Assembly: GCF_037975245.1 (NCBI RefSeq)
Contig: NC_092563.1
Coordinates: 19,610,094 to 19,674,093 of the forward strand
Direction of reading: 5' to 3'
Length of the DNA stretch: 64,000 nt
DNA from: Apostichopus japonicus
Lineage: Eukaryota; Echinodermata; Holothuroidea; Aspidochirotida; Stichopodidae
Part shown: positions 16,315 to 58,199 of the stretch, in pieces
Numbering within the stretch: the first letter of the stretch is position 1
Layout: each line of letters opens with the position of its first letter
Notes under the pieces: generated by a model
Told to the model about the DNA's origin: nothing
Databases searched by the model: none
The model's input: only the letters and a program-made list of their open reading frames with translations
Made by a program: the position numbers and the translations under genes

Positions 16315-16322
16315 GTCTGACC
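16315..16322 (+). repeat. Left target-site duplication of the 12-kb transposon
   Basis: GTCTGACC directly abuts the left terminal inverted repeat, and the same octamer follows the right end at 28364-28371. It matches the reverse complement of the Drosophila P-element preferred target (GGCCAGAC, from memory) at 7 of 8 bases. One base is shared with the inverted repeat, so the cut could be placed one base either way. Confidence 0.85.
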
Positions 16323-16354
16323 AGGGAGTTGTTATGGAATGGAGTTCTGTCTTC
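16321..16354 (+). repeat. Left terminal inverted repeat of the transposon
   Basis: 34 bp beginning CCAGGGAGTTGTTATGG and ending TTCTGTCTTC. It is the exact reverse complement of 28331-28364. Confidence 0.92.
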
Positions 16355-16359
16355 AGTGA

Positions 16360-19090
16360 TTTTATCACCATGTCCTTAAAACCACCTCAGGATACACTAC
16401 GCAGCCTATGTTAACCCTATGACTAAACACGAAGGTCAGGCCTCCCCAGAGAGCGATCAGATTTCCTTTGAACCATATGAAGTTGCCGACTCAGGAGACT
16501 TGTTCAAAACGCCCTCTATCGTTTGACCGTATCTAGCCGATTACTTCATGGGGCTTTCCCTGATACTTACCGCATGCGCAGTAGTTATTCTCTTTGGTGT
16601 CATGGCCGAAACTTATGTGCAGTTGAAGAAGAAACAGTTACCTTTTTTTTCGTGAAAACCCGAAATTCGGCCGATTTTTTTTCGGTAAGTTATGCCAAAT
16701 TATTCTTCATTGTTTTGTCGTAAATCGTACGGAATATTGGGAAATTTAGGCTAGAAAGAAGGGACTTTTTAGTCAATTTGCGCATCGTTTCGGCGATTTT
16801 TTACTATAGTGTAGTGTTCATTAATCTCTTAGCTCACCAAAATTGGATCGCAAAGTTGTGGCACTCACTGCCAATTTGGAGAAAAAATGGATAGTTTGAT
16901 GTCAAAATATTCATTTCGACGTCCGTTACCATGGTAATTAAACGATTGGTAAAATTTTGGCGCCATTTGTTGGCAATAACGGCGAAACCAGTATAGACTA
17001 TTTAGTGTAGGAATCGGTTTCACGATGCAATTATAAACTGTGGTATTACTAGTGGTAATGTGGTAAGCCCATGACTAACGTTAGTTGTCAATTTTAAGTT
17101 TTAACAACATTTCATTCGTTGTTTTTGGAAATTTAGTGATTTTACCGGGTATTATAACCCGGAAAGTTTCAATCGAGAGAACGGGTTACTGCTTGGTTCC
17201 CAAGTCAAGACTTAGGCTAAGTGGAAACGTAGCAAGGTCTATCCTTATACTAGATTTATACAAATAGCTCTAGGCCTAACCTACATAAAATTAGCCAAAT
17301 AAATAGCCTACTGTATTCTGAATACTTAAGCTTAGGCCTGCAGATAGTCCCTATAATATTTTGGTCTATTAGTCGTGCAAGTGAGCAATGAGAGTGATTC
17401 TACTTCCCCATTACACTTCACTACGGAACTACTTGAGATTGTATAATTGAGGATTAGCTTCAGTGTGTGATTTGGAGAGAGTAGATGTATTTTGCTGCTC
17501 TCTCTCCTTTGCATGGTTTACCATATGTTATGATTGTTTGCCCAATGCTTCTGAATGATATAATATATATTTCTCAGGCTACAGGTAATGACTTGTCAAA
17601 ATTTTGTAGATTATTTTCACTATGTCCACTCCAAATAAATTTTATTCACCACAGTTTCAAAATATTTACAGACCTGCAAATGGCACCTTTCTTTGTATGT
17701 AGCAGCATTTCATCCTTCAACAAATCCAAATAAATGTTGATGCATGTGTACATAGCAAGAACATAAAGCTTTCCTATACACTAGGCAAAAAGAATATTTC
17801 ATACCAAACAAATAAGTAAACTTATTTGTTCTTGGTGATTTTAGCAGACTTAAGGAATAAGTCTAAATCCAGCCTGTATGCAATTTATCATAAAAAAATT
17901 TGATCTATCTTTAGTGTTCCTCAGGCACTTTATCATGGGAACTGTCATGTTGAAATGATACATATTTGCAGGTTACGTTGGCCTTCTTACCAGGTGTCCA
18001 CAGGGCAAATGATGGGATGCATGAAATCATGGGATGGAAAAATTAGGGGGTGTGCTATACACCTAGGATTACCAATAACCTCTGATTTGCAGAGAAACAC
18101 ACAGTGTATGAACTACTGCATGAAATAAAAAGGTAAACTTTAAATGAGTTTGGAGTCCTGTCCACTCATACATTGTTGTTTTCTTGAGAAATGTATCCTT
18201 CGAAAACCCAACCTACATTGTTTGCAATACCCACGAAACTTAGCTACTGAAACCTCATATCAATAGTCTATAAAAAATATAATATATGCTTAATCCCTTT
18301 CATGCCCAAGTATAAAACTGTTAACTCTGTTATAACTTAATGAGTTGAGTTTATTAATTGAATTGGCTGGAATTTGTTCAAATATTACCTCAATAAGATA
18401 CAGATTTTGTAATTATACCAGCTTGGCTAAGTTTTAGTAACATCATAAATACTGTAAGTCATTCTTAATTTGAATATTAAGATGGGTTCATGTAAGCATT
18501 CAACCAACCAAAACAATATTGAAGCAGGGAGTTGTTCCATCACAACTCCTTGCTTGAAGTTGTAACCCAATTTGAGTTTTAAAAAAAAATATATATCTGT
18601 ATAAGTTTGAGCTCGTAAATCCTAGTATAGTCTTAGAAAAGGTACTGACTTCCATGCCTCCATATTCAGGAAGTCACTCAGTAAGAAGCTCTGTGTGAAG
18701 TTCAAATGCATTGTCCAGTTGAAGGAAACAGCCTTCTGTTTATCAAAAAATCAATAGTTTTTTTATCAAGAATCAACAGCTTAAGTATTTTTGAGTTTGA
18801 AGCAGGATGTTGTGGTAAGAAGATGCTGCTATTCAAGCTCAACAATGGTCCTAATTGCATTGTACATAGGGCAGGTATTGTATTTTGTGCAGAAGTTGTT
18901 AACACTGGCCAAATAATGTGGTCAAAGATGTTAAACAGGATCCAGGCATTGCAAGCAGCAATTTCTTCTCACAATGCTTCAGTCACTATAAAAAACAGCT
19001 GCATGAGTGGAATGGATACACATTGCAAGTGGGTCTGTTATTATCAACATTGGAATTGCTTTAAAGATGTGTGTTTTGTGAAATTTTGTT
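16360..19090 (+). other. 5' region of the transposon, possible leader exon
   Basis: No confident coding exon. A well-placed ATG at 16601 (GTCATGGCC) opens a short frame (MAETYVQLKKKQLPFF...). It stops in a T8 run and is followed at 16685 by a consensus donor, CG|GTAAGT. This looks like a first exon, either untranslated or carrying a one-base slip in the T-run. From there to 19090 is AT-rich, intron-like DNA with chance open frames only. Confidence 0.4.
16465..16490 (+). repeat. Left subterminal inverted repeat of the transposon
   Basis: CCTTTGAAC, 2-3 variable bases, then ATGAAGTTGCCGAC. It is matched in inverted orientation at 28300-28324. P elements carry subterminal inverted repeats that act in transposition, so this is a plausible transposase-binding or enhancer site. 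Confidence 0.75.
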
Positions 19091-22000
19091 ATGGCATTTC
19101 ATATGTGTATTTTGAAATCCTTGTGCAGATTATGTGGAGCAAAGCAAAGGGAAGGTTCTACATATTTTCAGAAAGAAATTTATGGGAAGGATATTTTAAA
19201 ATTTATGCAAGTGGACATTAATCAAGACATTCCAGGTGTCCATCCTAGTTCCATTTGTGACACTTGTCGAAGGAAACTATCACGCTGTAAGACTGCATCC
19301 AGAAAGTCAAAGAAAAACGAACAGTGTACTTCTAATGTACAGCTTCATAAATTCTCCGAACATTCAGAGGACAATTGCGCCATTTGTACAACCAATCAAT
19401 TGGACAAGAAAATACTTTTAGATTTTTGTAGAGAGACAGGATTTCTGTCATGGATGTCGAAAGATGGCAAAGTGATTGCAGTAGTAATGCATGACCTAGG
19501 AGAAGTAGTTTTGAAGAGAATTATAATTGGTGATAACTCAGTCACTGCCTTCATTCTTGGAAAAGTTGTTAACTTATCCCACAGTAGTCCATTTAAAGCC
19601 ATCACTGAAATTTGGGATTCAGAAATCTGTGTGGGAAACCATGATTTTGACACTTTAGCTGAGGCTTACCGTGAAGAAGGATTGAAAGGAACTGTTGGTC
19701 AGACTGTGGCTCAGGTAGAAACTCTTCGAACAGGGGACCAGTTAGAAGGCAAACTAACAATACGCCATAATAAATGCCATCTGATAATTTCAAATGAGGA
19801 TGTACAGCAGTCCAACCGAGCCATCAGTAAGTGCTGTGCTGTTTGTAAATTCTATAGGGCAAATTTACATCAAAAGCTGATAATACATCAGCAAAGAGGA
19901 CAAAAGAAGAAAACCAAAAACATTCTCTTGTCAAAACCAGAACTTATCAACAAAGTCAGTCATTTACAGACAGAGATCCAACTATCAAGGAACAGACAAG
20001 AAAGGTTGAAGAGCACCATTAGGGATCTGGTTGAAAAGGAAAGTGTGACTATTGATTCTGAAGAACTCCTGAAAGTTATCAAATGCAATGAAAAGGAATT
20101 GGAGTCTATTTTACCAGCTAACACACATTGTGCTTTACTTTGGGAGCAGCAAAAAAAGGCATTGCAAAGCAAATCCTCCAAAGGTATGAGATGGCATCCA
20201 GCAATAATCAAGTGGGCAATTGCATTGCATTCAAAATCATCATCTGCATATGACATCCTTAGAGATTCTGGATTTCTCATTCTCCCTCATCCAAGTACTC
20301 TTCATATGTACACACATTTTACACCGCCATCATCTGGACTTAATGTTGGTTTGCTACAGAGGTTTTTCGACAGTTTGAAGCTGAGCTCTCTTGAACCTCA
20401 TCAAAAGCTTGTAAACTTGATTTTTGATGAAATGAAAATTAAGGCAGGACTTGTGTTTTCCAAAACAAATGGCAAGTTAGTGGGATTTATTGATGTTGGA
20501 GATGTCAGTAAAGACATGGAACGTTTTGAAGCCAGATGCACTGAATCAAAATCTGAAATCCCAAATGTGGCCTCGCATGTGCTTCTCTTCATGGTTAGAG
20601 GCTTAACTTCAAGCATTAAGTTTCCGGTGGCTTTTTTTTTCACTAACAGTGCACCAGGCCATCAGCTGTATGAGATGGCAATGAATTGCATTAAAGCCCT
20701 CAAGCTGCTAGGACTTACAGTTATCTGTTTGACTTCAGATGGTGCAAGCTGCAACAGAAAACTGTATGAGATTTTGTCAGGAAGCTCCTCTTCACCACTT
20801 ACTCCTCATTACAAGACGAAAAATGTTTATGAAGAGAACCAGTACATATATTTTAATTCCGACGCACCACATTTATTAAAGACACTTCGGAACAATTTTG
20901 AAAATTCCAATTGGAACCGGAAGACAAGAAATCTTGTGGTAAATGACTGTTTTTATTGTCAAGTTTAATAAAATAAAAAAATTGAAGTAGGGTTATTCAG
21001 TGAAAGTTATATGTGTATGTGTATACATTTTGTATAAGGAGAAATGGTATAAGAATGTAAACTACTTTATTGGTCAAAATTTCTATTTCTATAACCACCT
21101 TGGAGGAATTTACCTCATTGGGACATTCAGTCATCTTGCATGTTTAACAAGAATGTCTGATAAGAACTGGAAGAGTAAAGACCTCCAGTAAAGTACTTTT
21201 TATTTGCCTCTCAGTAAATATTTACTGTTCTTTTCTTTCTTTTTACCCCTCATGCTCAGTATAATGGAAAGCCAATCCAATGGATCCACCTTCTGCAGCT
21301 TCAGGAATGGGATAAAGGGTGCAAAAGACAAACGCCTGGTTTGGTCCTCCTCCCGAAGCTCTCATATGAGCACCTCCATTTGAACCCGGGTTTGCGAATG
21401 AAGGTCAGCTTAGCTGCTCAGGTATGTTTTATATTATACCTTCAGTTATCAGTAAAAACAGTACTTGTTGAATACTTTGTTTCTTGAAGAGTCCCTTCAG
21501 TCTCTATGGTGGGACCGTCAATAACACTACTGTAGAATTAGTGTTGCAATTTTTTACGGAGAAGAAAAAAACTGTATACAAATGTGGATATGTCATCAGT
21601 ATTCAGTACCACACTACAGGGATTATGCAATTTATTACAGTGGATAACAGTAGAAGGCAAGGTTGTGCACCTTACAGTGTTTTACTGTTGTAACACTTGT
21701 GCTGTAATGTAATGGTTACCAAAGAAATTCTCAGTAAAGGACACTAGAGAAGGCAGGAATTTGTCATGAATGATTACCTTCTGATTTAATTAGCTGCAAC
21801 AATTGTTAGTGGTTTGTGATTTTGCAAAGAAATGACAACCAAGAAACTAGTCTAACATGAAACTAAAGAAGTTCCTGACATGCAGTATGGATATATTTAA
21901 AAACCTACTACAATATTTGATGACAAAATGTTACTTTTGTTAAGAATTGATTTCAGCACAAATTTGGTTACTTTGTCCATTGCAGGTGATGTCCAAGACA

Positions 22001-23395
22001 GTGGCCAATGCTCTACAATTGAAGGACAGTTTAGTGTATTCATCGACCATCAAATTTATTTTGATGGTCAACAAGTTTTTTGACTGCCTTAATGTTGGCT
22101 CTACATCACTGTGGCTGAAAAAGAAGAATACAGACATCAAACCATACACATCTGTTGATGATGAAAGACTTGTGGTCAGTACTTAAAACATTCAATCTCT
22201 CATAGTTTACTTCACATGTGCATAATATGTGTGATAAAGACACTAATTAGTGTGTCAAAGTAAAAATGTCTTATTGCAAAGGTAATACAGCATACACCTA
22301 TATTGTCCTACTTGCAATTTACATAACCAATTGTAAAGTACTGTAAAGCACACGTATGAATGGTATTCAAAGAGAAAAAAAATATGCTTGTATCTCTAAA
22401 AAACCTTCTTCTTAAGCTTTAAAATGGAGAATAACAAACTACACTTTTACCACCACAATGTCTCATGAATTTTTCTTTTGTTTTCAAACAGTGGCTTACA
22501 GAAGAATTTTTGGGTTTCTTGAAAGAGTGGACTGAAGAAGGTGAGCACCTTCCAGGGTTAACACCGAAGCAAAAGCAGGCATTGCATCTTAGTGTACCCA
22601 CATTGGCTGGATGTCACATAGCAGGTATGTTTTGTCTTATTTATTGTTTCTTTATGTTAATCGTTACATATTGTGAAATATTCTTTAATGACTTTATGAC
22701 TATTTGTAATTCAATTCTAACATAAATCTTTGCAATCAAACAACTGCTGTCACAACTTCTTGATGTAAAAAAGACACAAATGAAAAATATGTGAAATTGT
22801 TTCAGTACAGTAGTAGGGATAAACTCATGTACAAAATATATATCCATGTTTGAAGTCCAAATATGACATGTGTGTCTATAGAATTGTTGTTGAGAATGGA
22901 GAAGTGACCTTAACATATATGCGTACCTACATCAAAACTCTTCAAATGAGGCAGACTTGTCAAGCTTCCACCCTAATCCTCATTTTTTTATCAGAGGTGC
23001 CAGAAATTATGTTTATTTGCTCTTTAAGATCCTACATAGATTTAATAAATCTTGAAAGACTATGTAATGTCTATGAATATTCACTTCAATTTGTTTTCTC
23101 TGTCCTTTTTACAGTTCACTCTTTCACTGAGATTACAAAGCTTCTTCTGGCCATGGATGGAGTCAACTTCTTCCTCAGTGACAAACTTAACCAGGATCCT
23201 GTGGAAGAATTTTTTTCCAAACAACGGTCAGCTGGTGGTCATCATGACAATCCATCAGCTGAACAATTTGGCCATCACTTGATGAAAAATATCGCTGCAG
23301 GTAGTCATGCTGCAGCATCCAGGAGAGCCAATGTTCGCCGTGAGCAGCCCTCAAAGGATATAAGTGATGAGCCCTTGCCCAAAAAAAAGCGCTAA
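19091..23395 (+). CDS. P-superfamily transposase with RAG1-like N-terminal zinc region
   Basis: Cut-and-paste transposase. Exons: 19091-20938, 21260-21421, 21986-22174, 22492-22624, 23115-23395, with GT/AG borders and matching phases, giving about 870 aa. N-terminus: C12-x2-C15, H51-P-x3-C56-x2-C59, then H91-x4-C96-x2-C99. This is the spacing and wording of the RAG1 non-core zinc region (IHPxxFCxxC in RAG1, VHPSSICDTC here). ZAD domains also share the CRLCG...ICxxC theme. Next come a CxxC...H...H motif (C249-H266) and a coiled coil at about 285-330. The catalytic domain has FDEMKIK (D446), TSDGASCNRK (D550), DAPHLLKTLRNN (D591) and LNQDPVEEFF (E808), as in P element/THAP9. The C-terminus is a PLPKKKR nuclear signal. 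ATG 19091 has G at -3 and an in-frame stop just upstream. An acceptor-like GTGCAG at 19123-19128 leaves an upstream leader exon possible. Confidence 0.88.
20939..21259 (+). promoter_or_regulatory. Transposase intron with in-frame stop and AATAAA signals
   Basis: The donor GTAAAT at 20939 continues in frame for nine residues to TAA 20966-20968. AATAAA hexamers at 20967-20972 and 20972-20977 overlap or follow that stop. Retention or early polyadenylation would give a 625-aa protein that keeps the zinc region, coiled coil and first two Asp motifs but lacks the Glu motif and nuclear signal. The Drosophila P element makes a repressor by intron retention, so a similar control is plausible but unproven. 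Confidence 0.5.
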
Positions 23396-23520
23396 CTTTG
23401 GTATAATGAATTGGGTTCACAGGGGGAGGGGGGTGAGGGCATGATAAGCAGCGAGAGAAAAAAATATATACATTTTCATTTTGAGGTGAGAAATTCATTG
23501 AAAGTTATATACATTTGCAA

Positions 23521-24515
23521 TTTTTTGCATTGAGTATCAATAATTCAATACATCAATATTTAAGATCCACATTGTAACTGATATTGTAAGTGAACCTTCT
23601 TGTGTAGTATACTTCATTACATTTGAAATGCCTGTTAAACCCATGTTATGTGAAAGGGTTAACTGTAGCCAAGCGTTGCTATGGGACTAAGTATTTTTGT
23701 TATGACTACTGTCAATCATATTTTTTTTTTTGGGGGGGGGGGGCTCTGATAAGTTCCATTATTTTATGATTTTATTTATTTACTGCTTGATGGCACTAGA
23801 CTTAAATATGTTCTAATGCACTTTCTTTGAAAAAAAAATGTCCAGCTGTTATGATCTAATGCATTGAAATCAGGTGAATGGCATGACTTCCACCTAGTCT
23901 GTCAATTTTTTGCATTGAGTATCAATAATTCAATACATCAATATTTAAGATCCAAATTGTAACTGATATTGTAAGTGAACCTTCTTGTGTAGTATACTTC
24001 ATTACATTTGAAATGCCTGTTAAACCCATGTTATGTGAAAGGGTTAACTGTAGCCAAGCGTTGCTATGGGACTAAGTATTTTTGTTATGACTACTGTCAA
24101 TCATATTTTTTTTTGGGGGGGGGGGCTCTGATAAGTTCCATTATTTTATGATTTTATTTATTTACTGCTTGATGGCACTAGACTTAAATATGTTCTAATG
24201 CACTTTCTTTGAAAAAAAAATGTCCAGCTGTTATGATCTAATGCATTGAAATCAGGTGAATGGCATGACTTCCACCTAGTCTGTCAATTTTTTGCATTGA
24301 GTATCAATAATTCAATACATCAATATTTAAGATCCAAATTGTAACTGATATTGTAAGTGAACCTTCTTGTGAAGTATACTTCATTACATTTGAAATGCCT
24401 ATTAATCCCATGAAGGGTAACCGTAACAAAGCGTTGCTATAGGACTAAGTATTTTTTGTTATGACTACTGCCGATCATAATTGGGGTAGAGGGGGGGGGG
24501 TCTCTGATATATTTG
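23521..24515 (+). repeat. ~385-bp tandem repeat between the convergent transposon genes
   Basis: The block starting TTTTTTGCATTGAGTATCAA occurs at 23521, 23906 and 24288 (periods 385 and 382 bp). Copies 1 and 2 are nearly identical, including a T-run/G-run junction before CTCTGATAAGTTCC. Copy 3 is more diverged and incomplete. It lies in the shared 3' region of the two genes. Confidence 0.9.
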
Positions 24516-25040
24516 TTGCTATATTTTCATTGTGTGTTAATAGTTAAAAGTGTTAATAGTGAATGCATCTAACAGTGATACCAATGCATGCTCCATGCTG
24601 GCTTTGAACTAGAGCATTAAGTGGTTAAATGAAAAGAAAGTACACCAAACAAGAATGTGATTTTGTTGTCAAGTCTTCATTGTTAACTTAAAACTTGTAC
24701 AAAAACTTTACAAAGACGGAAATAAATTAAAAGAATATATTTACATTATATGGAATAGATGAACTATGGGTTAGTTATCCCCAAGGTTTGTTAACCTAAG
24801 ACCCTGCCTCCCCCCACCCCCTCTTGTCCCTTTTTATCAGACCTTGACAATTAAAACCACATACTCAATCTTAAAAAGAGGGGTAAACCTTCAAAATAGA
24901 GTGTTAAATTATCATTAGGGGTTTAACTCTTTGTAGTGTAAGTTTCAGCTTTACAAACACAACTTGATGTAAAATGTTAAGCATTATGCACCCATCCTGC
25001 CTCCCTTCATGCTCTAGGGCTATTCATATCAATGGTATCT

Positions 25041-28000
25041 TCACATCCCTAAACTTTTTCTAAGTCCTTTGTCAGATTTTTTTGATATTTTGTCTGTTAT
25101 TTGCTTATTTATATTTATATATACTTTCATAAAGGATTCACATCTCATTTTGATAAAACATTTAATAACCTCAGAACGAAGCAGAGAACTAGCTTCCTGA
25201 GAAAGAATGTCACAAACAGCACTCCATGTAGACAACAGTTGCTGATTACCTTCCATTTTTTTAATTAATAAATCTTGCAGGTTAACATCTTGTAAGCTCA
25301 CAATATTTTTAGTTTGTACAGTTGTCCTTACAATTTCTTCCATACATTTGAAGAAAATAAATACACTATCATTGACTAGAAATAAGCCGCCTCTATTCTG
25401 TATTTCAATCCACTCATTTGAATAAGCAAGAAATGAGTCTGCAGCTGGGCTTTCATCCTGACACCACTTAGATAAGATTTTGACATATTGAGCAGCAACC
25501 TCATTGCTTTGCATTTTATTGTATTTTTTTATTAATTTATATGGTACATAACCAGCACAGTACCGCAATGCCTGGTCCTCTGTCTGAGTCATTGCTTCAG
25601 GGGTCACGTCTAAGGTTGTTGCTGGCATGTCACTTTCCAGCAAGGTTGCTAAGAGGGAGGAAAACATCTTTTCCAGGGCATGCTGTAGAAAGAATACTTC
25701 TTCTTCTGCTTCCCTTTCAATATCCACCTCATTCAGTACTTTCTGCCATCTTCTTAATGTTTTATCCATAGACCTATACTTGTGGAAATCATGCCACATT
25801 TCGCTCTTCACTTTATCAGAAAATGTGGTCCCTCTTATGTTCTTGGTTATGGACCATAACTGTTCTACTGTTTCTGCAGCAAACTTGCCAAATTTTTCAT
25901 CTTTTGTATGAGGCATCACTCTTCTTGCTAATTGTACGACACTTGATGTTAGTGGGGTCTTCAGTTTGAAGAGGTCGTCTTCAAAAATGTTATTGATGGC
26001 AGCTTCAAAAAAATCCATCGCAAGCACTGAAGCATCAGCCTTCCTAAAGGTCTTTGCTGGATACTGCATTCCTGTAAATGAAAGAGTTATGACAGTTTTC
26101 AAGGAACAGGCTATTTTTAAAGAAACACCAGTCATAAATTACATGTCTTGTAACTGGTGAGGATTATTTTCCATCCCTTTAAAAAAAAATGATTCTGCAG
26201 CATGTTTCAACTTTGAAAGAGAATTCATATTCACGAGAATCCATTTCTTAGTCCTTGGGTTCTAAGTAGAACTTCCTCCTTATGGGTCGGGTGATATTAG
26301 CTAAAATATCAATAATCAAGATATATGCCTCATTATAGCAACAATTGTAGAGAACAATGATTCACTTAAAATTGAGCTTCTAATTTCATAGTAGAATCAA
26401 AGAAATTACATCACTCTATATTCCGTGCTGGACGTTGTGACCTATGGATATTGCTTCAAATAATTTCTTAACGTATGATAATAAAAATGATGTAAATAAT
26501 AAAACAAATATTCTTCAAAGGAAGTTACATTCCACCCCCAGATATTTTGTTAACAGGTGAGTGTCCAAATGCTACCTTGTTACCTCTCCATACGCATCCA
26601 CCAAAGAATATCAATATTCCTTCAAATCATTCTTAAAAGTTACTTCCTGCTTCTGAACTCCACCAATATGTAAAGTTTGGAAACTTCAACAAAGAAATTT
26701 AAACTTACTTAAGTTGGTGGTAGGGCCAGATGTGGCTTCTTTTGAGGGTCCACTCTCTATTCCAGTCCTCTCTGATGTTTGAGAAGAAGTTTCTACAAGA
26801 AAAATTAAATGAAAGATAAATAGATTTTTAAAGAGTCCATTTTCCAACTGAATGTAACATTGATGAAAATTTCTCATTGATATATAACTAGGAAACCTGT
26901 ACCTCATGTATACAGTATGTTGGCTTAGAAAACCTTTTTTGAAGTTCAATGAATACCACACTAAGGCTTAACTGTCAATAACCATGATGTAGAGCAGATG
27001 TATAGATAAAGTAACACAGTAAAATAAATAGGTTTCACTACTTGGAGGTGAGATAAGTATTGTGCTATTTTTGGGATCGTGTAATGCTAAGGTTAGGATG
27101 AAAAGCAGTTATTTTTGACAGTGAGACTAGCATCCTTATTGCTCTAGCAATAGGAGATCCTGAGACTGTGGAACTTGGATCGGTCCCTAGTCTACATTGT
27201 CATATTGACAACTTCAGTTAGGAGCTTAACTTTTGTTATATATAGTAATCGTTTGTTATTGTTACACCTTCAAATATGACTAAATTTTAACAGCGCAAGG
27301 ACAAAGCGGGCAACCAAAACTATTTGCAGCAGAGCACGGTTAAAATACAAGCCTACCACGTACACAATTAACTGTCTTGTAACATATGTTTTCTACAGAT
27401 TTTTCGATGGCACAGCAGGCCTATCCAATATGGAAACCATATTTCCAATTCCAAGTGAACTGACAGGGTCTAGGCCTCAGTGAATAAAAAGGCCACGCAC
27501 ACACTTTAAGAGTAGGCTAGTCTATAACAATGCATAGCCTAACTTCGGATTTCGCTAAATTTAGGAACAACAGGACTAAAGAGTAACATTTCATCCTACG
27601 CCAAACAACATACTGTATTGTGGTGTATAGGCCTAGCCTAGTACAGTAGATTTTATTTAGTAACATTAACAATGAATGAGGCAAGGAAATAGGCAGAATG
27701 GGACACTTGTGCCTAGGATAAGCCTAGGATATAAAGGCGAATGATTCATGCTGGATCTTATCAATAGCAGTTACAAATACTTTGCCAATGCCTGGTTTCT
27801 ACTCGTACCTTTGCAAGAGGGACAAATCCACTCCTCCAGCGTTTTCTGTGCGCAGTCCACAAGCCTAGCCTTCAGCATACATGTTGTGTGAAACCATATA
27901 GTTTGGCAAGTTTCACGGTTGCACTTAAACAAATTTTCAGTCGACGGAAGTTTACACTTGCAAACCGAAAATACTGTCTCGCTATTGGTGTCATCCTTGG

Positions 28001-28079
28001 TCTCAGACAACGTCTCAAACTCTTCCCAATCGAAGAATTCCGTTAAATCTAATGATTCTAGTGTTTCGTTGGCGTCCAT
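25041..28079 (-). CDS. PHD-finger protein encoded by the transposon, 3 exons
   Basis: Exons (minus strand): 28079-27809, 26792-26709, 26071-25041. All junctions are phase 1 with GT/AG borders, giving about 461 aa. Residues 1-40 are acidic (DLTEFFDWEEFETL). Residues 40-90 form a C4HC3 PHD finger: VCKCK, FKCNRETC, IWFHTTC, then EEWICPSCK. Exon 2 is a Ser/Thr/Gly-rich linker. Exon 3 holds an alpha-helical domain with DDLFKLKTPLT, ALRYCAGYVPYKLIKKY and WIEIQNRGGLFLVND, which I do not recognise, and a basic C-terminus. The start is ATG 28079 (AAAATGG); no ATG lies upstream in the same frame. The gene faces the transposase. PHD fingers usually read histone H3 tails (K4 state), so a chromatin-targeting partner role is inferred. 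The identity of the C-terminal domain is unknown. Confidence 0.82.
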
Positions 28080-28176
28080 TTTGGTAAGTAAAGATGTATA
28101 GTACTGTGTCTGTATAGGAGTTTCCACAACAAATCCCTGGCTGTACGTAAGCGTGTGTATATGAGGCTTTTGTTTA

Positions 28177-28188
28177 CAACTCCCTGGT
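28177..28188 (-). repeat. Extra copy of the terminal motif inside the right end
   Basis: ACAACTCCCTGG repeats the outermost bases of the right inverted repeat about 175 bp inside it, and a weaker AATCCCTGG lies near 28132. Repeated terminal motifs are often transposase-binding sites. Confidence 0.55.
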
Positions 28189-28299
28189 TACCCGAAGTGG
28201 CTTTACCGAGGTCACGAACGTTGCCGAGTTATGCAAACTACGCCTGCAGGCGATGTCCACCTGCTGTGCTGCAGTGACGGGTTTTATTTGTATGGCCTT

Positions 28300-28324
28300 G
28301 TCGGCAACTTCATCAGTTCAAAGG
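28300..28324 (-). repeat. Right subterminal inverted repeat of the transposon
   Basis: Reverse complement of the CCTTTGAAC..ATGAAGTTGCCGAC motif at 16465-16490. Confidence 0.75.
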
Positions 28325-28330
28325 AGGTTG

Positions 28331-28364
28331 GAAGACAGAACTCCATTCCATAACAACTCCCTGG
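28331..28364 (-). repeat. Right terminal inverted repeat of the transposon
   Basis: 34 bp ending AACAACTCCCTGG, the exact reverse complement of 16321-16354. Confidence 0.92.
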
Positions 28365-28371
28365 TCTGACC
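28364..28371 (+). repeat. Right target-site duplication of the 12-kb transposon
   Basis: GTCTGACC follows the right inverted repeat and repeats 16315-16322 exactly. Confidence 0.85.
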
Positions 28372-35678: not shown

Positions 35679-36896
35679 TCATACATCGTTATCTCGTCTG
35701 ATGTCCAAATAGTTGCTCACATCCATTACAGATGCACGAGCCTCTCGGCCAATCACGATTCCTTCTACATCCTCCTCCGTGTGAAGGGTGCAATCAAGTA
35801 AATTTGGCTTCATTGCTTTAATTTTTTCAATGACATCTTCTTGCAGACCACAGTGGCAATGTAATGCCTTCAGATGGACAGCATGTTCCACAAGATTCAG
35901 CAAAGCTTCCTCTAGGGCTTTTGAACCTTTTGTTGTTATGGTCAACTTTTCCAATGACTGGCTGAAGTACGAGTCCACAAGAGCCACCTCTCTGTGGAGT
36001 TCACTCATTGTCCTCAGGCTGAGTTCGACGAGAGGTATCTGATGGTGTAAGATGCTGTGAATCAGGAGCCGCTCTATGGTATGATCGAAATTAACGATCA
36101 CTCGCAACTTAGGGAGGGCCTTGGTGATCTTGTCCCACGATTCGATGGACACATGCTTGTGGAACTTGTCCTCTCTCTGACAGCTAAAAGAAAGGACCTC
36201 TAGAGGGCTCCTGTCCTTCTCTGTGAAGGCTTCCATCAGTTTGTCGCACATGGACGAGTAAAAACAGGACAACCGTCTGAGTTTGCGACACTTCTCCACC
36301 AGGTTGAATAGGGCCACGGCAGACACTTGACAAGATAGCGAAGTATTCTGAATGTTCAACACTTCCAAATTTGGATGGTTTGATGATAGCAGATTAAATA
36401 AGATGTCAGTGTACGAAATATTGAGACCACTTAAATCGACATCTACCAATGTACCAGTTAGGATTATCTTAGGATTAGGCGGACCAAATAATTCGGCGAC
36501 ACTGCTTAGAATGTCATTACCTTGAAAGAAGAGAGGATTCTCCGTTGTGAAGTAAATACCTATCCTCTCTAACTTCCTTTCTTCATGTCTTGCCAAACCT
36601 GTTATGACCCTGCACAGGTTTTCACAATTGAAGGGTCCTTGAGGGTCTACGAATACAAAGACTGACTTGAGATGGCCTCCGTGCTTCTCTAAACATTTCA
36701 GCTGTTTGGCATCGGCTCTGGAATGAAAGTTGAAAGAAAAGTGGCGCCATAGTACTGCTTTATCAAACACCTCTGCCCAATGCTGACAAGAGAGAGAAGC
36801 AGAGTAACGATCTCCAACATCAAGCATAGAGAATATGAGCAGAATTACGTGGTCGGGCAAATTCTCCCATTTGGCAATTCCATGTGCATCTGTCAT
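35679..36896 (-). CDS. FBXL8-like: FBXL8-like F-box protein, paralogue A
   Basis: Predicted substrate adaptor of an SCF (SKP1-CUL1-F-box) ubiquitin ligase, 405 aa in one coding exon. F-box at about 10-55: WENLPDHVILLIFSMLDVGD, then RYSASLSCQHWAEVF and LWRHFSFNF. The rest is a leucine-rich-repeat-like array. It matches human FBXL8 (from memory) in ENPLFFQGNDILSSVAELFG, VDLSGLNISYTD, NTSLSCQVSAVAL, LVEKCRKLRRL, EAFTEKDRSPLEVLSFSC and LHCHCGLQEDVIE. The start is ATG 36896. A CTGTTTTCAAAG acceptor lies about 30 nt upstream, so a 5' UTR intron is likely, as in paralogue B. It lies head to head with paralogue B, about 4.3 kb away. The substrate is unknown. Confidence 0.88.
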   Translation of the reverse strand: MTDAHGIAKWENLPDHVILLIFSMLDVGDRYSASLSCQHWAEVFDKAVLWRHFSFNFHSRADAKQLKCLEKHGGHLKSVFVFVDPQGPFNCENLCRVITGLARHEERKLERIGIYFTTENPLFFQGNDILSSVAELFGPPNPKIILTGTLVDVDLSGLNISYTDILFNLLSSNHPNLEVLNIQNTSLSCQVSAVALFNLVEKCRKLRRLSCFYSSMCDKLMEAFTEKDRSPLEVLSFSCQREDKFHKHVSIESWDKITKALPKLRVIVNFDHTIERLLIHSILHHQIPLVELSLRTMSELHREVALVDSYFSQSLEKLTITTKGSKALEEALLNLVEHAVHLKALHCHCGLQEDVIEKIKAMKPNLLDCTLHTEEDVEGIVIGREARASVMDVSNYLDIRRDNDV

Positions 36897-39800
36897 GGTG
36901 AAGTCCAGCTGAACGTCACAGTAATCTTTGAAAACAGACAACAGGATTACATCTCAAACCTGATAAAACAAAAAAAAAGAGCAAAAAATATGATGGGCCG
37001 TGGATGAAGTTAGAAAAGCGGCTTCATATAGGGAAACATTTATCTTTACAATGTTGAACAGACAAGAAACTCAATTTTCTTATCTACTATGCTTGCAGAT
37101 CATGAATGAAAACATGATCCTCCTTGTTTTCAATAGAACCATATTGTAGAGAGAAACTTCAAAGTAAAGATAAATTGCATACATGTTAGAAATTGCACAC
37201 ACTGACAATGTACAAAGTTCTCTAAAAAAAGATGCAGAAAGTGTGACATGTTTTACTTTGAAAGATCTTAGAACAACTTCTAAGTTTGAACTTGAAAACA
37301 ATAGATTGCAGATAATAGGACATTCTGGAGATGCATGTGATCTGGTACTGACTAAATGACTTGAAATTTGATGAAGATTTACAGCACTTGGCTGCATGCT
37401 GACATTAACAGCATGACTTATATCTTATCATTACTTTTCTCTACATATGCACTTGGACAGAAACTTTTAAACTGATTTCTTACTTCTAAATCGCAGAAGA
37501 TAATTTGTTTGCAAAAGAAACCAAGGTTTCAGATCAACACTTATATACCAACAAATTTCTGCACAAGAAGAAACAAGTCACAAGCAGCTTGAACAATCTC
37601 AAAAGTGAATAATTAAGTAACACTATGAAAAGCAGCTGGGTATGGAGACTTCACCGTTCATGGGTACGTACTGACAGAGGTCAGATGCAAGTGTACCAAT
37701 TCTTTGTTCCATTTCAGTTGACAATGTTTGTGTTTTTGTTGAAAATATATGGAAAGTGCAGCTTAAGTGAGATGGGATGTGTGCATGTGATGAAAGATTT
37801 ACTGTAGATTGGCTTCTCTATTACTGGCATGCACAGACTCAACATTTTCATTATTTCGAGAAATTTCAATGTGTTCTGAAAATAGGCACAACATCACACA
37901 AATTATCTGATCAAAAACCGGACTCCTAATGGGCTATATTAATCATTTATCACATAGTAGGTCTACCAACATGCAGTATAAATATGTGATCTGCATTCAG
38001 TAATTATATTGGTGCTGTAAATTTCTAATCAGCCACAGCATGACAACTTTATCAGTAACAGTATACTAGTTTATATATTGCAATGTAATCAGGGTAGATA
38101 CTGAAATATAATTATGAAATATGACAGAAAATATCCTCTTGCAATTAGAAAAATGTCCATACACAATTGTTATTGCCTTATTCCGGTGGCATTGCATGCC
38201 CTAGTGAAAATAGGGCTACTGTAGCAGTAACATTACCGATACACTCACGACACATCATGTATATGAACAGCCTAACAAAGTAATAGAAAGTCAAGATAGC
38301 GGTGCAGTACTTGGCACTGAGCTATAGCCTTGGCTAACATTTATAGTTATTCCTTAGTACTACTAGTACTAGTAGTAGGTATTACTTATTTAGTAAGTTT
38401 CTGTAGCTAGCCTAACTAAGGCTTAGTCCTACTTCAAGTTCAATTGAATTTACTTTTACGTGCAACAACCACAACACTGTTTTCGTTAGCTGGCGAAGAG
38501 GCATGGGCTTTCGGAAATGAGCTTTATAAATACCTAAGCTAGTCATTAATGCAACGTTGATGATCCTTTGGACTCATCTTTCATGACCGGTACCGCTGCG
38601 ACATGACTCATCTAACCTGTTAATTCAATTCACCGGTGTATAACCTATTTTCGGAAGATCAGCAACACTCGTGTCTATGTAAAGTAGTTATGGATGTCTC
38701 AATTTGTGTCAAGCGTTTGTAACTCTAAATATATGTTTTAGATTCTGGGGCTAGATTATACTAAGAAAGTTAACCTAGCCCATCGTATTATTGCTATTTA
38801 AATTAACAGTAATTTCACACATTGGATCAAAAGGCTTGTGATAATTTTGCATATTAACTTGATCCAACCAAACTGTATTATGGTCTGTAATTACTACTGT
38901 ATTGTTTGTAGACACGCCCATCTGTTCAAAACCGGAAGAGAATTTGAAGAATGTAAACAGTGCAAGGCTCTACAGTTGTACACGGTATACCTTACATTCG
39001 TACACATCCAACAACTACCCGTCGTTCTGACTTTTTCGTAATTTGTTGGGTTTGTATCGACGCATCTTCAAGGTAATGTGAACGTGTAAGTTTAAAATTG
39101 TGTCCGTTGTACATTTCGGATCGTCTGGAAAAAGTATAACACTTTGAACGATAAAGTCTTCTCGAATATCGGTCAGCCGAACTATGTAGGAGTTACGGTT
39201 AGCAGTGTCGCACATTTGATACCTTGCACACTATCGCTGTGAATGGTTGTACATCAAGCTGCCTGTCGTTAGTAGGCCTATATTACAACTATGTAGTATG
39301 TTGCAGAACCATACCCCACCCCACCCCCACCCCAGCGTTTGCCACACAGTTATTCAGATGTAAAAGAAAATGCAATAGGACCTAAGCCTGTTAGTCTCAC
39401 CGACGCAGTTGATACTTCAGCAAAATTGACATTTGAACTTCAGATGTAGGCCTACAGTAATTCAGTTGCATAGCCAAAGGGTGCAGGGGGGGGGGGAAGG
39501 GGGCGACCACTAGAAATTTCAAAATAGAAAATTCCTAATAAGTGCCATTTCCAGCGGTCTGGGAGGCATTTTCGGCCAAAATTTTCTTGTACGCTTCGCG
39601 GCAATCCATCATCTGCAATGCTCAGAATGTGGTCAGGCGCATAGCAAGGAATTTGCCAAGGGAGGGGCAAAGCCTCTAGGCAAACTATCTAAGCGTAGCG
39701 CCACCATGGATATCAGATGGATATCAGATTGGCCAATGTGCTGGCAATTAGCATAAGTTTTAATATATGATGTTATCCAACCAGCTTTACGTATCATCCA

Positions 39801-41199
39801 AGTAAAAACAAAAGATGATCTTTGCTCCAGCTATGGTATGGCAGACATGGGTGTCAATACTTTAAATCTGGACACTAAGCTTTGCCGATAACCGGCTATA
39901 GTTGGGAATTTACTATAAAATCTTCTTGCCTTTATGAATGCTGTGTGGCATTTGTTGGGAGTAATGTTTGCATCTGGGTACCTGCTGGCCCACTACCATT
40001 AGTACCTAGTTCCAGAAGTTTTGTTTAATTTTTTTAGAAATTTATTTAGGCCTACAGGGTGATTGTGAAAGTGAGTTTCACCGTGTAAGTATTACAGTTC
40101 AGGTTGAACTATACAGCATATTGAATGAGCCCTACATGGTAAAGGACTGCCTAAGAATAGATAATTATGAGAAAGAAGGCTTGTCTTCATGTTCACCCAA
40201 AGAGGATAAAGAAAATATCACTGTGGTCCCAAAGAAGAACTTTCTATTTTATCTTTCATTTATTTTGTTACCAACTTACCATTATTTCTCTTCCTTCTTT
40301 TTATAAATGTATTTTTTTGCACATGTTCAGGCTTTCTAATGAATAAGTAGTTGGTAATTAACGATAATGTTCTATTCACAAAAAAATAGGGTGGTGGTTA
40401 AAGGTGGCACCGGCATTAGGAGAAATGGAATGTAGCATTTGAGTCATTGCTGGTTGAGCCTTGGCTGGTTTAAATATTTAGGAACTATATAGATTTTTTG
40501 TGCCATCCAGGGCTTCATATATTCAAACTGTATAATTATGGTCTTCTCAGTTTGGGAGAAAAATCCAAAACTTGTAAGCAAAAATTGTGTATTTTATAGA
40601 CACTTGAAGTGAATTGGAACCTATATGAATCATATGGTGTTCCCTGTTCCATGCATGCATATTAGTTGTTGCTCTTGTAACGTAACTTTACCCACTTCAG
40701 ACCAGACTATAAATGACTCTTATGCAAAGGCCATTACCACAGTGCTACGATAGACATATCAAAGGAAACATTAAGCTGGCATTCGCTAGTTCTGTGTTTG
40801 CCTTTTGAAGTATTTGCCAGTTCTTGAAATCAGGTTTAGATGCCAATATTGGCATTTGCCTGTTCGGGAAGCTGACATTTGCTGTGATGCTGTCGCAAAG
40901 AATTGACCCAAATATCATGTATTCTTTACTCATGTATATATTTGTGTGGTGCAGTACGTACCCAAGTTTGCCCATCTTCAAAGATCCATGGAAAAGATTC
41001 TTAAAAATGATATGCAAAGTACTGTAAATGCATTTGTTTGTTTTTGGAAATACTTATTACTTTGGATATACAGTACCCTTAAATTTATGCCAAACTTTGA
41101 TGATCATACTGTGTAAGTTGGGTAAGAATGCAATCAACTATATTTAAAGTTGGGTCTTTCAAAATGCTTATCATCCACAGGTTGATACATATCATCGAA
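36897..41199. other. Shared upstream region of the two F-box genes
   Basis: About 4.3 kb between two divergent start codons. It should contain both 5' UTR exons and one or two promoters. Both starts sit just after acceptor-like sequences (CTGTTTTCAAAG on -, TTATCATCCACAG on +). No other gene is supportable. A MITE cluster lies at 39463-39712. I could not place donors or transcription starts. Confidence 0.5.
39463..39712. mobile_element. Two abutting hAT-like MITE fragments
   Basis: An inverted fragment at about 39463-39605 starts CAGTTGCATAGCC, has a long G run, and contains CCAGCGGTCTGGGAGGCATT and TTCTTGTACGCTTCGCGG. A forward fragment starts CAGGCGCATAGCAAGGAATT at 39634 and has AACTATCTAAGCGTAGCGCC before stopping. 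Confidence 0.6.
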
Positions 41200-42438
41200 A
41201 TGTCCAACAGTGATCAGAAAGGAGGATTTGGTAATCTACCTAATCATGTTATTCTCATCATCTACTCCTGGCTAGATCTAGGTGATCGTTTTACAGCCTC
41301 ACTGACCTGCAAGAAGTGGGCTGCAGCTTTCCAAAGTGCCTCCCTTTGGCGGCATTTCTCGTTCGCCTTCAGGTCCAAGGCCCATTCAAAGCTGTTAAAG
41401 TGCATCGAGGATCATGCCAATGACTTGAAGTCAGTCCGCATTTACATCGACCCCCAGATTCGTGTCAACTGCGACAACCTCTGCAGGGTGGTGACCAGCC
41501 TCTCTAGGGCAGACGAGAGACGACTTGAAAGGCTCGGAATTTTCTTCATTGCAGATAATCCTTTGATGTTCCAAGGAAATGACATTCTCAGCAGCTTGGC
41601 CGAGTTGTTCGGTCCTCCTGATCCCAAGCTTAGTGTGATGACCTCCTTAATTGAGGTTGATCTGAGTGGATTAAATGTAGCATTCACTGATATAACCATT
41701 AATCTCCTAGCTTCAAACCATCCTTCTTTGGAAATCCTCAATATTCAGAATACGTCACTGATCTGCAAAGTCAGCCCTGCTGGGCTTCTGAATCTGGTTC
41801 AGAAATGTCGTAAATTGACGAAATTGTTCTGTTACCACGTGTCTGTTACCGATGAGGTGATGCTTGCATTTACCGAGAAGAAACGGGAGTCACTGGGGTA
41901 TTTGTCCTTGCAGTGTCTAAGGCATGATAGGTTTCGTCCTCCAATATCTCCAAGTGTGTGGGACAGAGTCACCAAGTCTCTCCCCAAGTTACGGGTCGCT
42001 CTCCATTTTGATCATACCATCGAGAAGGAGACCATCAGGGAGATTATGCACCACCAGATACCAGTAGTACAGATAAATCTTAATGTTATGGCAGAACTGG
42101 AGACAGAACTAGCCCTGATCGACTCCTATTACAGTGGTACCATTGAAAAGTTGACCATTTTTACAAAAGGTTCCAAAGAATTTCAAAGATTGTTACTGGC
42201 CTTTGTTGAGAAGGCAAGTAAATTAAAAGTGTTGCATTGCTACTGCGGTTTGAGTCAAGAAACCATTCAAAAGATATTTGAGATTAAGCCCTTCTTTGAT
42301 CAATTTACACTTCTCACCGAAGAGACTTTTAGGGCCCACACACCACAGGTATATGTAGGGCAGGATGCTAGATCGACTGTCTTAGACAGTTGTAATTACC
42401 CTGTTTTGGAGGAAAGTATGGAAAATTTGTCTCTCTAA
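41200..42438 (+). CDS. FBXL8-like: FBXL8-like F-box protein, paralogue B
   Basis: 412 aa, single coding exon, closely similar to paralogue A throughout. F-box: FGNLPNHVILIIYSWLDLGD, then TASLTCKKWAAAF and LWRHFSFAF. LRR-like region: ADNPLMFQGNDILSSLAELF, VDLSGLNVAFTD, NTSLICKVSPAGLLNLV, LHCYCGLSQETIQKI. The C-terminal motif YVGQDARSTVLD parallels VIGREARASVMD in A. ATG 41200 (GAAATGTCC) follows an acceptor (ATCCACAG at 41180), so the upstream in-frame ATG at 41128 is probably intronic. AATAAA lies at 42498-42503. Predicted SCF ubiquitin-ligase adaptor. Duplication by inversion is inferred from the head-to-head arrangement. Confidence 0.9.
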   Translation: MSNSDQKGGFGNLPNHVILIIYSWLDLGDRFTASLTCKKWAAAFQSASLWRHFSFAFRSKAHSKLLKCIEDHANDLKSVRIYIDPQIRVNCDNLCRVVTSLSRADERRLERLGIFFIADNPLMFQGNDILSSLAELFGPPDPKLSVMTSLIEVDLSGLNVAFTDITINLLASNHPSLEILNIQNTSLICKVSPAGLLNLVQKCRKLTKLFCYHVSVTDEVMLAFTEKKRESLGYLSLQCLRHDRFRPPISPSVWDRVTKSLPKLRVALHFDHTIEKETIREIMHHQIPVVQINLNVMAELETELALIDSYYSGTIEKLTIFTKGSKEFQRLLLAFVEKASKLKVLHCYCGLSQETIQKIFEIKPFFDQFTLLTEETFRAHTPQVYVGQDARSTVLDSCNYPVLEESMENLSL

Positions 42439-52640: not shown

Positions 52641-53445
52641 CCGTGCAGTCTTTATCAATGAATTTGCTTGCGCAGTCTTCCTCTTTTATCTTTTATCATC
52701 AACGTCCTGCAACCTCATCCACCTTCATCCGACTCAATCATCTTTCATTACTGGACTCCCTTTGTTCTTCTTCAGTCTTCATCCATCTTTTATCATCGTC
52801 GTCCTGCAACCTCATCCATGTTCATCCCACTCTATCATCCTTCACTCGTGGACTCCCCTTGTTCTTCTTCTGGTGACATCGTCAAGCATCTTAATCCACA
52901 TCCTTCCGTCTGCGTCCACCTTCCAAACCCATCATCCTTCTTCTTTTGCATCTGAAAAACAAAACTAGAAAAACAGTTAGAACATATCAAATACATAACC
53001 CACCACTAACCCTGTGACCCCCTCTTCTTCTGGTGGCATCATCCAGCATCTTAATCCACCTCCTTCTGCATCCACCTTCCACAACCATCATCCTTCTACT
53101 GCATCTGACACAACAAGGCTAGAAAAACAGTTAGAACATATCAAATACATAACCCAGCCACTAACTCTGGGACCCCCCCTCCTCTTATTATGGTGGCATC
53201 GTCCAACATCTTAATCCACCTCCTTGCGTCTGCGTCCACCTTCCACACCCACCATCCTTCTTCTGCATCTGAAAAACAAGGCTAGAAAAACAGTTAGAAC
53301 ATATCAAATACATAACCCACCCACTAACCCTGGGACCCACCCCTCCTCTTCTTCTGGTGGCATCGTCCAGCATTTTATTCCACCTCCTTACGTCTGCGTC
53401 CACCTTCCACACCCACCATCCTTCTTCTTCTGCATCTAAAACAAC

Positions 53446-56400: not shown

Positions 56401-56500
56401 TAGAACATATCAAATACATAACCCACCCACTACCGACCCCCCTCCTCTTCTGGTGGCATCGTCCTGCGTATTTATCCGTCTTCTTCTGCATCTGAAACAA
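53446..56500 (+). repeat. Higher-order repeat block 1 (~1.1 kb, nine monomers)
   Basis: Matching variant patterns recur with an offset of 1099 bp (about 53718 to 54817 to 55916), including the unusual short unit with ACTACCGACCCCCCTCC at about 54719, 55819 and 56428. Within it a two-monomer unit of 246 bp is itself repeated (54121 and 54367; 55220 and 55466). Confidence 0.85.
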
Positions 56501-57400
56501 CAAGGCAAGAAAAACAGTTAGAACATATCAAATACATAACCCACCCACTAACCCTGGGACCCCCCTCTTCTTCTGGTGGCATCGTCCTCGTCTTTATCCG
56601 TCTTCTTCTGCATCTGAAACAACAAGGCTAGAAAAACAGTTAGCACATATCAAATACATAACCCACCCACTAACCCTGGGACCCCCCTCTTCATCTGGTG
56701 GCATCGTCCTGCGTATTTATCCGTCTTCTTCTGCATCTGAAACAACAAGGCAATAAAAACAGTTAGAACATATCAAATACATAACCCACCCACTAACCCT
56801 GGGACCCCACCCCCCTCTTCTTCTGGTGGCATCGTCCTGCGTCTTTATCCGTCTTCTTCTGCATCTGAAACAACAAGGCAAGAAAAACAGTTAGCACATA
56901 TCAAATACATAACCCACCCACTAACCCTGGGACCCCCCTCTTCTTCTGGTGGCATCGTCCTGCGTATTTATCCGTATTCTTCTGCATCTGAAACAACAAG
57001 GCAAGAAAAACAGTTAGAACATATCAAATACATAACCCACCCACTAACCCTGGGACCCCCCTCTTCTTCTGGTGGCATCGTCCTCGTCTTTATCCGTCTT
57101 CTTCTGCATCTGAAACAACAAGGCTAGAAAAACAGTTAGCACATATCAAATACATAACCCACCCACTAACCCTGGGACCCCCCTCTTCATCTGGTGGCAT
57201 CGTCCTGCGTATTTATCCGTCTTCTTCTGCATCTGAAACAACAAGGCAATAAAAACAGTTAGAACATATCAAATACATAACCCACCCACTAACCCTGGGA
57301 CCCCACCCCCCACTTCTTCTGGTGGCATCGTCCTGCGTCTTTATCCGTCTTCTTCTGCATCTGAAACAACAAGGCAAGAAAAACAGTTAGCACATATCAA
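56500..57400 (+). repeat. Higher-order repeat block 2 (~0.5 kb, four monomers)
   Basis: The rare variant CAATAAAAAC (for CAAGAAAAAC) occurs at 56751 and 57247, an offset of 496 bp. The preceding GGCTAGAAAA and CTTCATCTGG variants are in register. Confidence 0.8.
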
Positions 57401-58199
57401 ATACATAACCCACCCACTAACCCTGGGACCCCACCCCCCTCTTCTTCTGGTTGCATCGTCCTGCGTCTTTATCCGTCTTCTTCTGCATCTGAAACAACAA
57501 GGCAAGAAAAACAGTTAGCACATATGAAATACATAACCCACCCACTAACCCTGGGACCCCCCTCTTCTTCTGGTGGCATCGTCCTGCGTCTTTATCCGTC
57601 TTCTTCTGCATCTAAAACAACAAGGCAAGAAAAACAGTTAGAACATATCAAATACATAACCCACCCACTAACCCTGGGACCCCCCCCTCTTCTTCTGGTG
57701 GCATCGTCCTCGTCTTTATCCGTCTTCTTCTGCATCTGAAAAAACAAGGCAAGATAAACAGTTAGAACATATCAAATACATAACCCACCCACTAACCCTG
57801 GGAACCCCCTCTTCTTCTGGTCGCATCGTCCTGCGTATTTATCCGTCTTCTTCTGCATCTGAAACAACAAGGCAAGAAAAACAGTTAGAACATATCAAAT
57901 ACATAACCCACCCACTAACCCTGGGACCCCCCTCTTCTTCTGGTCGCATCGTCCTGCGTATTTATCCGTCTTCTTCTGCATCTGAAACAACAAGGCAAGA
58001 AAAACAGTTAGAACATATCAAATACATAACCCACCCACTAACCCTGGGACCCCCCTCTTCTACTGGTCGCATCGTCCTGCGTCTTTATCCGTCTTCTTCT
58101 GCATCTGAAACAACAAGGCAAGAAAAACAGTTAGCACATATCAAATACATAACCCACCCACTAACCCTGGGACCCCCCTCTTCTTCTGGTGGCATCGTC

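Follow-up and report, generated by a model that had tools for sequence, protein, structure and literature searches.

The window analysed here is a stretch of 64,000 nucleotides from the holothurian Apostichopus japonicus (assembly GCF_037975245.1, contig NC_092563.1, positions 19,610,094 to 19,674,093 of the forward strand). At 16322-28363 it contains a mobile element of 12,042 bp, which is best read as a cut-and-paste transposon of the P superfamily with its transposase divided between two convergent genes, one of them encoding a C-terminal domain (CTD) subunit equipped with a chromatin reader. The probability assigned to this reading as a whole is about 0.78; the split of the transposase itself is its most secure part and is considered very probable. 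The gene on the + strand encodes the catalytic portion and the partner gene on the - strand encodes a PHD finger ahead of a P-transposase CTD. Because the partner, beyond its PHD finger, contains the CTD that belongs to the transposase, the pair is taken as a split transposase and not as an enzyme with an unrelated accessory protein. Membership of the P superfamily is firm and of an already known kind; the two-gene architecture is what is new. The first-pass annotation of this DNA knew of no described P element with such a partner, and a literature search that did not extend to Repbase Reports or subscription journals likewise found neither a PHD partner nor a split CTD in any described P element, so that a prior description is possible.

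The catalytic gene

The + strand gene is made up of five exons, with GT-AG sites at every intron, and encodes a product of 870 amino acids (aa). Its domains follow the order of a zinc region, a P-type helix-turn-helix (HTH), the first half of an RNase H fold, a GTP-binding insertion and the second half of the RNase H fold. The two RNase H halves are recognised by the Pfam models TNP-like_RNaseH_N (PF21787, 1.8e-29) and TNP-like_RNaseH_C (PF21789, 3.2e-8), the HTH by Tnp_P_element (PF12017, 2.1e-5) and the GTP-binding insertion (PF21788) is matched on successive exons at 2.4e-5 and 0.0099. The DDE residues are D446, D550 and E808, the first two encoded in exon 1 at 20426-20428 and 20738-20740. 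D805 is found three residues ahead of E808, the same spacing as that between D528 and what is presumably E531 in the P transposase of Drosophila. D528 itself is documented for that enzyme (PMC7776569). The closest solved structure to the + strand protein is also that of the Drosophila P transposase (6p5a, phmmer 1.9e-9). The P-type catalytic core named in the first-pass annotation is borne out by the RNase H halves, the HTH, the DDE residues and this match.

A THAP domain would be expected at the N-terminus of a canonical P element, where it is typical but not universal. Here that place is occupied by a RAG1-type zinc region. Its motifs in exon 1 (CRLC, HPSSICDTC and HSEDNCAIC) had been called RAG1-like from the letters alone, and all three Cys/His motifs are invariant among the aligned copies. 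The Pfam model RAG1_imp_bd (PF12560) matches the zinc region of the window at E 0.0017, which is below the cut-off, and exceeds the cut-off in two relatives, L003 and L008 (2.4e-9 and 1.3e-9), by which the RAG1-like character is upheld. The zinc region of the window element also aligns weakly but colinearly with RAG1 chain 21wb_A. All searches for other copies and for the partner were confined to the window's own assembly (671.6 Mb in 35 contigs). A scan of this genome with RAG1_imp_bd gave three matches, namely the same two relatives and one site adjoining another P-type transposase fragment. As the superfamily is defined by the catalytic core, the lack of a CTD in the + strand gene bars the canonical one-gene architecture and not superfamily membership.

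The partner gene and its C-terminal domain

The - strand gene consists of three exons with GT-AG introns and in-frame junctions, and is predicted to encode 461 aa. As proposed at first pass, it is convergent to the catalytic gene and begins with a PHD finger, which is encoded by its first exon. The finger has the Cys4-His-Cys3 zinc pattern and the aromatic WFH element of readers of histone H3 lysine 4 (H3K4). Its best match in the PDB is BPTF (E 3e-4), and the PHD finger of one relative is matched to ING1 (2.6e-9). The finger is closest to the BPTF/ING readers of H3K4, and histone binding is predicted for it.

The C-terminal half of the partner is homologous to the CTD of P transposases. Profile comparison by hhalign with the CTDs of single-gene P transposases from the same genome gave E-values of 2e-5 and 3.3e-6, the latter with a score of 44 against a best of 18.5 among 100 column shuffles. 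Offered the whole transposase profile, this half of the partner aligned on the CTD only, and the motifs YxAGY and RGGL...D.V...E are common to the partner and the P-transposase CTDs. The Pfam model Tnp_P_element_C matched one partner member weakly (0.074). An AlphaFold model of the half, built from a joint alignment, reached a predicted local distance difference test (pLDDT) of 77 and a predicted template modelling score (pTM) of 0.76. The best fold match of this model is 6p5a_B, the CTD in the strand-transfer complex of Drosophila P (Z 10.9, 118/118 residues, root-mean-square deviation 2.9), with the next-best match at Z 7.1.

The CTD is absent from the catalytic gene. In the window family and in the diverged families inspected, the stop codon follows directly after RNaseH_C, whereas in the single-gene P transposases found at other sites of the genome the catalytic core and the CTD form one polypeptide. 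One of the latter (L029) has a THAP exon. A further P-type lineage (L021 556-2901 and L027 1997-4333), which is separate from the two-gene clade in the tree, likewise encodes its CTD within one long single reading frame; no THAP was detected by Pfam in L021. No partner gene was seen near the single-gene P transposases in the genome search.

Several points weigh against this account of the partner. The fold match is supportive and not independent, because the alignment used for the model already held ordinary P-transposase CTDs, and a Z of 10.9 for a helical domain is under 13, the caution level of the tool for helical bundles. Taken singly, none of the partner proteins matches the Pfam CTD model significantly. 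When exon 3 was predicted from the partner family alone, the pLDDT was 60, the C-terminal half was of low confidence and only a helical bundle at residues 10-147 was confident; Foldseek found no match at E < 0.5 for that model. GT-AG sites and a conserved exon order are the grounds for joining the - strand exons into one gene. In the PHD finger of the window, a Val precedes the first Cys pair, a position held by an aromatic residue in many H3K4 readers.

Paired families and the age of the pairing

Other copies carrying both genes, a search for which had been proposed in the first-pass annotation, are present in the window's own genome. A second near-complete copy at C17:23.63 Mb contains both genes, ordered and spaced as in the window, with 98-99% DNA identity, from which it follows that the window family moved recently. 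Four further families contain the convergent pair inside their own CATGGAG ends (C17:20.91, C17:17.77, C17:16.77 and C16:29.99 Mb), with exact 7-bp duplications of GTATGCC, CTTCAAG, GCCCAAC and GTTCTAG. A sixth pair, also with both genes, is located at C17:21.10 Mb. Element ends were not found for the copies at C17:21.10 and C17:25.07 Mb, where the gene order alone is known.

The proteins of the other families are ~29-45% identical to those of the window. PHD-like exons are seen in all the paired families, some of them damaged by stops or frame changes, and the order and strand of the PHD and CTD exons are kept. As the convergent pair recurs in four of these diverged families between ends of their own, the pairing is old and did not arise by chance capture. 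In a tree built on the catalytic core, the two-gene families cluster in a single clade (99/99) apart from other P transposases. By a reading of two search lists, as opposed to a separate computation, a convergent partner is nearby at 9/16 sites of this transposase type, including 5/5 of those with an intact or near-intact main frame; the unpaired sites are fragments or are broken by stops. Orthologues of the PHD gene at non-transposon loci had been suggested at first pass as the mark of a host gene, and the genome search, which gives a lower bound, found no full-length partner gene outside such elements. A scan of viral contigs with the transposase alignment found no relatives.

Selection on the partner is visible in the ratio of nonsynonymous to synonymous substitution rates (dN/dS), which is 0.34 and 0.38 against two PHD-only copies, a figure blurred by decay since pseudogenisation. 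Between the two recent full copies the comparison has no power, with 2.5 synonymous changes.

The region of C17 at ~16.4-25.1 Mb is crowded with P-type transposases. About half of the sites found are on C17, a contig of <6% of the genome, which suggests a region that keeps or attracts them, for example through low recombination.

Element ends and target duplications

The first-pass annotation described a single element with inverted repeats and a target duplication, and its coordinates proved exact. The perfect 33-bp terminal pair is the longest inverted repeat of the region. A pattern of the terminal repeat, with <=3 mismatches allowed, matched 20 times in the genome, versus 0 for the reversed control pattern. 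Three other copies of the window element each have a 7-bp duplication of their own (CTGAAAC, GTTTAAC and GGTAATG), which establishes 7 bp as the true length. The duplication is 7 bp long in 8 insertions from 5 families, whereas the Drosophila and zebrafish members of the superfamily have one of 8 bp (PMC7776569).

Subterminal repeats of 21-24 bp, of the type TTTGAA...AT[CG]A...CCG, recur across the families, with a spacing to the element end of ~145-148 bp on the left and 29-44 bp on the right. The window family has both, with an exact 14-bp word in common. Among the other end-mapped families, the right site occurs in 4/4 and both sites in 2/4. Unequal end spacing is a known trait of P elements and has been likened in the literature to the 12/23 spacing of RAG signals (PMC7776569). 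One guess is that the subterminal repeats are bound by the zinc region of the transposase. In the 5′ part of the element, a short hairpin at 18525-18555 repeats the initial 12 bases of the terminal repeat (CAGGGAGTTGTT ... ACAACTCCTTG).

Table 1. Features of the two-gene element and its flanks, in window positions
Feature	Position	Strand	Remarks
Left target-site duplication GTCTGAC, 7 bp	16315..16321	.	same letters at 28364-28370
Left terminal inverted repeat, 33 bp, CAGGGAGTTGTTATGGAATGGAGTTCTGTCTTC	16322..16354	+	inverted-repeat search
Left subterminal repeat TTTGAACCATATGAAGTTGCCG, ~145 bp from left end, candidate protein-binding site	16467..16488	+	similar motif in two other families
Transposase exon 1: RAG1-type zinc region, HTH, RNase H first half with catalytic Asp446 and Asp550	19091..20938	+	
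Transposase exon 2: GTP-binding insertion domain (part)	21260..21421	+	weak Pfam TNP-like_GBD; GT-AG; conserved in relatives
Transposase exon 3: GTP-binding insertion domain (part)	21986..22174	+	Pfam TNP-like_GBD 2.4e-5; GT-AG; conserved in relatives
Transposase exon 4	22492..22624	+	GT-AG; conserved in relatives
Transposase exon 5: RNase H second half, catalytic Glu808 (23204-23206), then stop without CTD	23115..23395	+	Pfam TNP-like_RNaseH_C 3.2e-8
Intergenic tandem repeat, 382-bp unit, 2.6 copies	23518..24509	.	
Partner exon 3: N-terminal helical bundle; last ~190 residues P-transposase CTD	25041..26071	-	
Partner exon 2: linker	26709..26792	-	GT-AG; conserved in C17 copy
Partner exon 1: start codon, acidic N-terminus, PHD finger (C-x-C ... 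WFH..C ... W.CPSC)	27809..28079	-	PHD-like exon also in related families
Right subterminal repeat TTTGAACTGATGAAGTTGCCG, 21 bp, ~41 bp from right end	28302..28322	-	similar motif in all four other end-mapped families
Right terminal inverted repeat, 33 bp	28331..28363	-	exact reverse complement of left one
Right target-site duplication GTCTGAC	28364..28370	.	same letters at left flank

Proposed mechanism and alternative explanations

As the catalytic gene has no CTD while single-gene P transposases retain it, the domain is needed from elsewhere, and its supply by a separate protein is plausibly feasible in mechanistic terms. The two proteins would most likely form one heteromeric transpososome, and their assembly in trans is considered probable. 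The catalytic subunit, in which the RAG1-type zinc region stands in place of the usual THAP DNA-binding domain, would recognise the terminal repeats together with the subterminal ones, whose spacing differs between the two ends. The CTD subunit, composed of the PHD finger, the helical bundle and the CTD, would dock on the RNase H and GTP-binding domains and on target DNA. In docking, it would position the histone-tail reader at the point of target-DNA selection. Histone targeting of integration under the guidance of the PHD finger is possible, with the odds put somewhat against it.

It is unlikely, although conceivable, that the catalytic protein acts alone, with the partner in a regulatory role (for instance as a repressor or as a factor in nuclear import or expression) and reusing the CTD to bind the ends. 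Drosophila P produces by alternative splicing both the full transposase and a shorter form (PMC7776569), the latter known as a repressor. Moreover, derivatives without a transposase that retain the partner gene have spread. Two 4.5-kb copies, L010 (C2:29.714 Mb) and L011 (C12:11.435 Mb), are 96-97% identical and have one internal deletion in common but different target duplications, which indicates that the deleted form itself was mobilised. The partner reading frames of both short copies contain stops or frame changes, and a catalytic protein acting alone would be without the CTD in all families inspected, in a genome whose single-gene P transposases keep it. The first-pass annotation had regarded same-ended copies lacking the PHD gene as a sign of capture; in the short derivatives it is instead the transposase that is gone, with the PHD gene retained. 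A separate repeat family, at C7:2842042-2842287 and ~9 near-identical sites, contains only a partner CTD fragment (~45% identical), and probably derives from another two-gene family.

The 1-kb intron and the short middle exon between the PHD and CTD exons could be taken to mean that these exons belong to two separate genes, giving three proteins per element. This is very unlikely, as the in-frame GT-AG junctions give one 461-aa frame and the order and strand of the exons are conserved in other families.

Descent from a RAG transposon, in which the partner would be a divergent RAG2 and the core would have been swapped, is highly improbable. The RAGL, ProtoRAG and TransibSU elements and RAG1-RAG2 have in common with the present element two convergent genes (reported for RAGL transposons in PMC7204232), a related N-terminal zinc region, a PHD finger in the partner and unequal end spacing. 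However, those systems contain a Transib-type core, a 5-bp duplication and CACTNNN ends, whereas the core here is P-type, the duplication is 7 bp and the ends are CAGGGAG/CATGGAG. The RAG-type partner has a kelch propeller with a C-terminal PHD finger. In the present partner the finger is N-terminal and nearest to BPTF/ING, the remainder is a P-transposase CTD, and domain searches of the protein found no kelch or RAG2 match. Descent of the partner from RAG2 was rejected because of its fold and of the type and position of its PHD finger. A search of the genome found no RAG1 core, which is a weak negative as the search had no positive control. Of the RAG1/RAG2-like two-protein plan put forward at first pass, the convergent pair with a PHD partner stands, while the likeness of the partner to RAG2 does not. 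On the evidence of sequence, common descent with RAG1 would extend to the N-terminal zinc region only; the catalytic core, the ends, the duplication length and the partner are of other origin. The working likeness of the two-gene plan to RAG1/RAG2 is real but a matter of analogy.

Capture of a host PHD gene by one element has as little probability: PHD fingers are common in the host (103 PHD matches in the genome), but the PHD-CTD fusion occurs in all six paired families, with proteins ~29-45% identical, and no full-length partner was found at a non-transposon site. Whole-partner capture by one element was rejected on the occurrence of the partner in six diverged families. The PHD part was probably once taken from a host gene, since PHD fingers are common host domains.

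Comparison with known systems

The element has in common with other members of the P superfamily (Drosophila P, zebrafish Pdre/THAP9 and Galileo) an RNase H fold with a GTP-binding insertion, the HTH and the DDE residues, as well as inverted ends, unequally spaced subterminal repeats and short direct target duplications. It differs from them in the RAG1-type zinc region in place of THAP, in a duplication of 7 bp and not 8 bp, and in an element size of 9-17 kb. Unlike in those elements, the transposase lacks the CTD, which is instead found behind a PHD finger in the product of a second gene convergent to the first.

According to the 2015 paper on TransibSU (PMC4411706), the zinc domain of RAG1 (Chapa) was not known from any transposable element other than those of the Transib group. 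The N-RAG-TP of Aplysia (Panchin and Moroz 2008) has been described as built of sequence similar to the RAG1 N-terminus (PMC8355894). By that citing description, it is like the present element a transposon protein resembling the RAG1 N-terminus, and it could be a relative of this P-type clade.

In a wider and more tentative interpretation, which is possible but not favoured, the element represents an independent ancient two-subunit transposase, namely a split P transposase whose target-contacting CTD is tethered to a chromatin reader, from a lineage sharing the N-terminal zinc module of RAG1. The presence of this module on an unrelated transposase core bears on the origin of the RAG1 N-terminus. 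If the interpretation is correct, the RAG1 N-terminus would be a module that has moved between unrelated transposases, and N-RAG-TP may belong to the P-type clade. The two-gene families would also provide a natural experiment on transposases gaining chromatin guidance, in parallel to RAG2 in RAG1/RAG2.

Other mobile elements resemble this one in single features. MuDR, of the Mutator group, carries the convergent genes mudrA and mudrB in one DNA transposon, as is the case here, although its transposase and partner are unrelated. To our knowledge, no split of the transposase itself is known in MuDR. CR1-like retrotransposons encode a PHD finger in ORF1 and so are also mobile elements with such a finger; these are retroelements with an unrelated enzyme.

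Other features of the window

Outside the element, two related frames of ~425-445 aa with an F-box/leucine-rich-repeat-like character are located in opposite orientation at 35679-36953 (-) and 41104-42438 (+). A long tandem array, whose frames repeat KQLEHIKYITHPLTLGPPSSSGGIVLRLYPSSSASETTRQE and which is satellite-like, occupies ~53273-63436.
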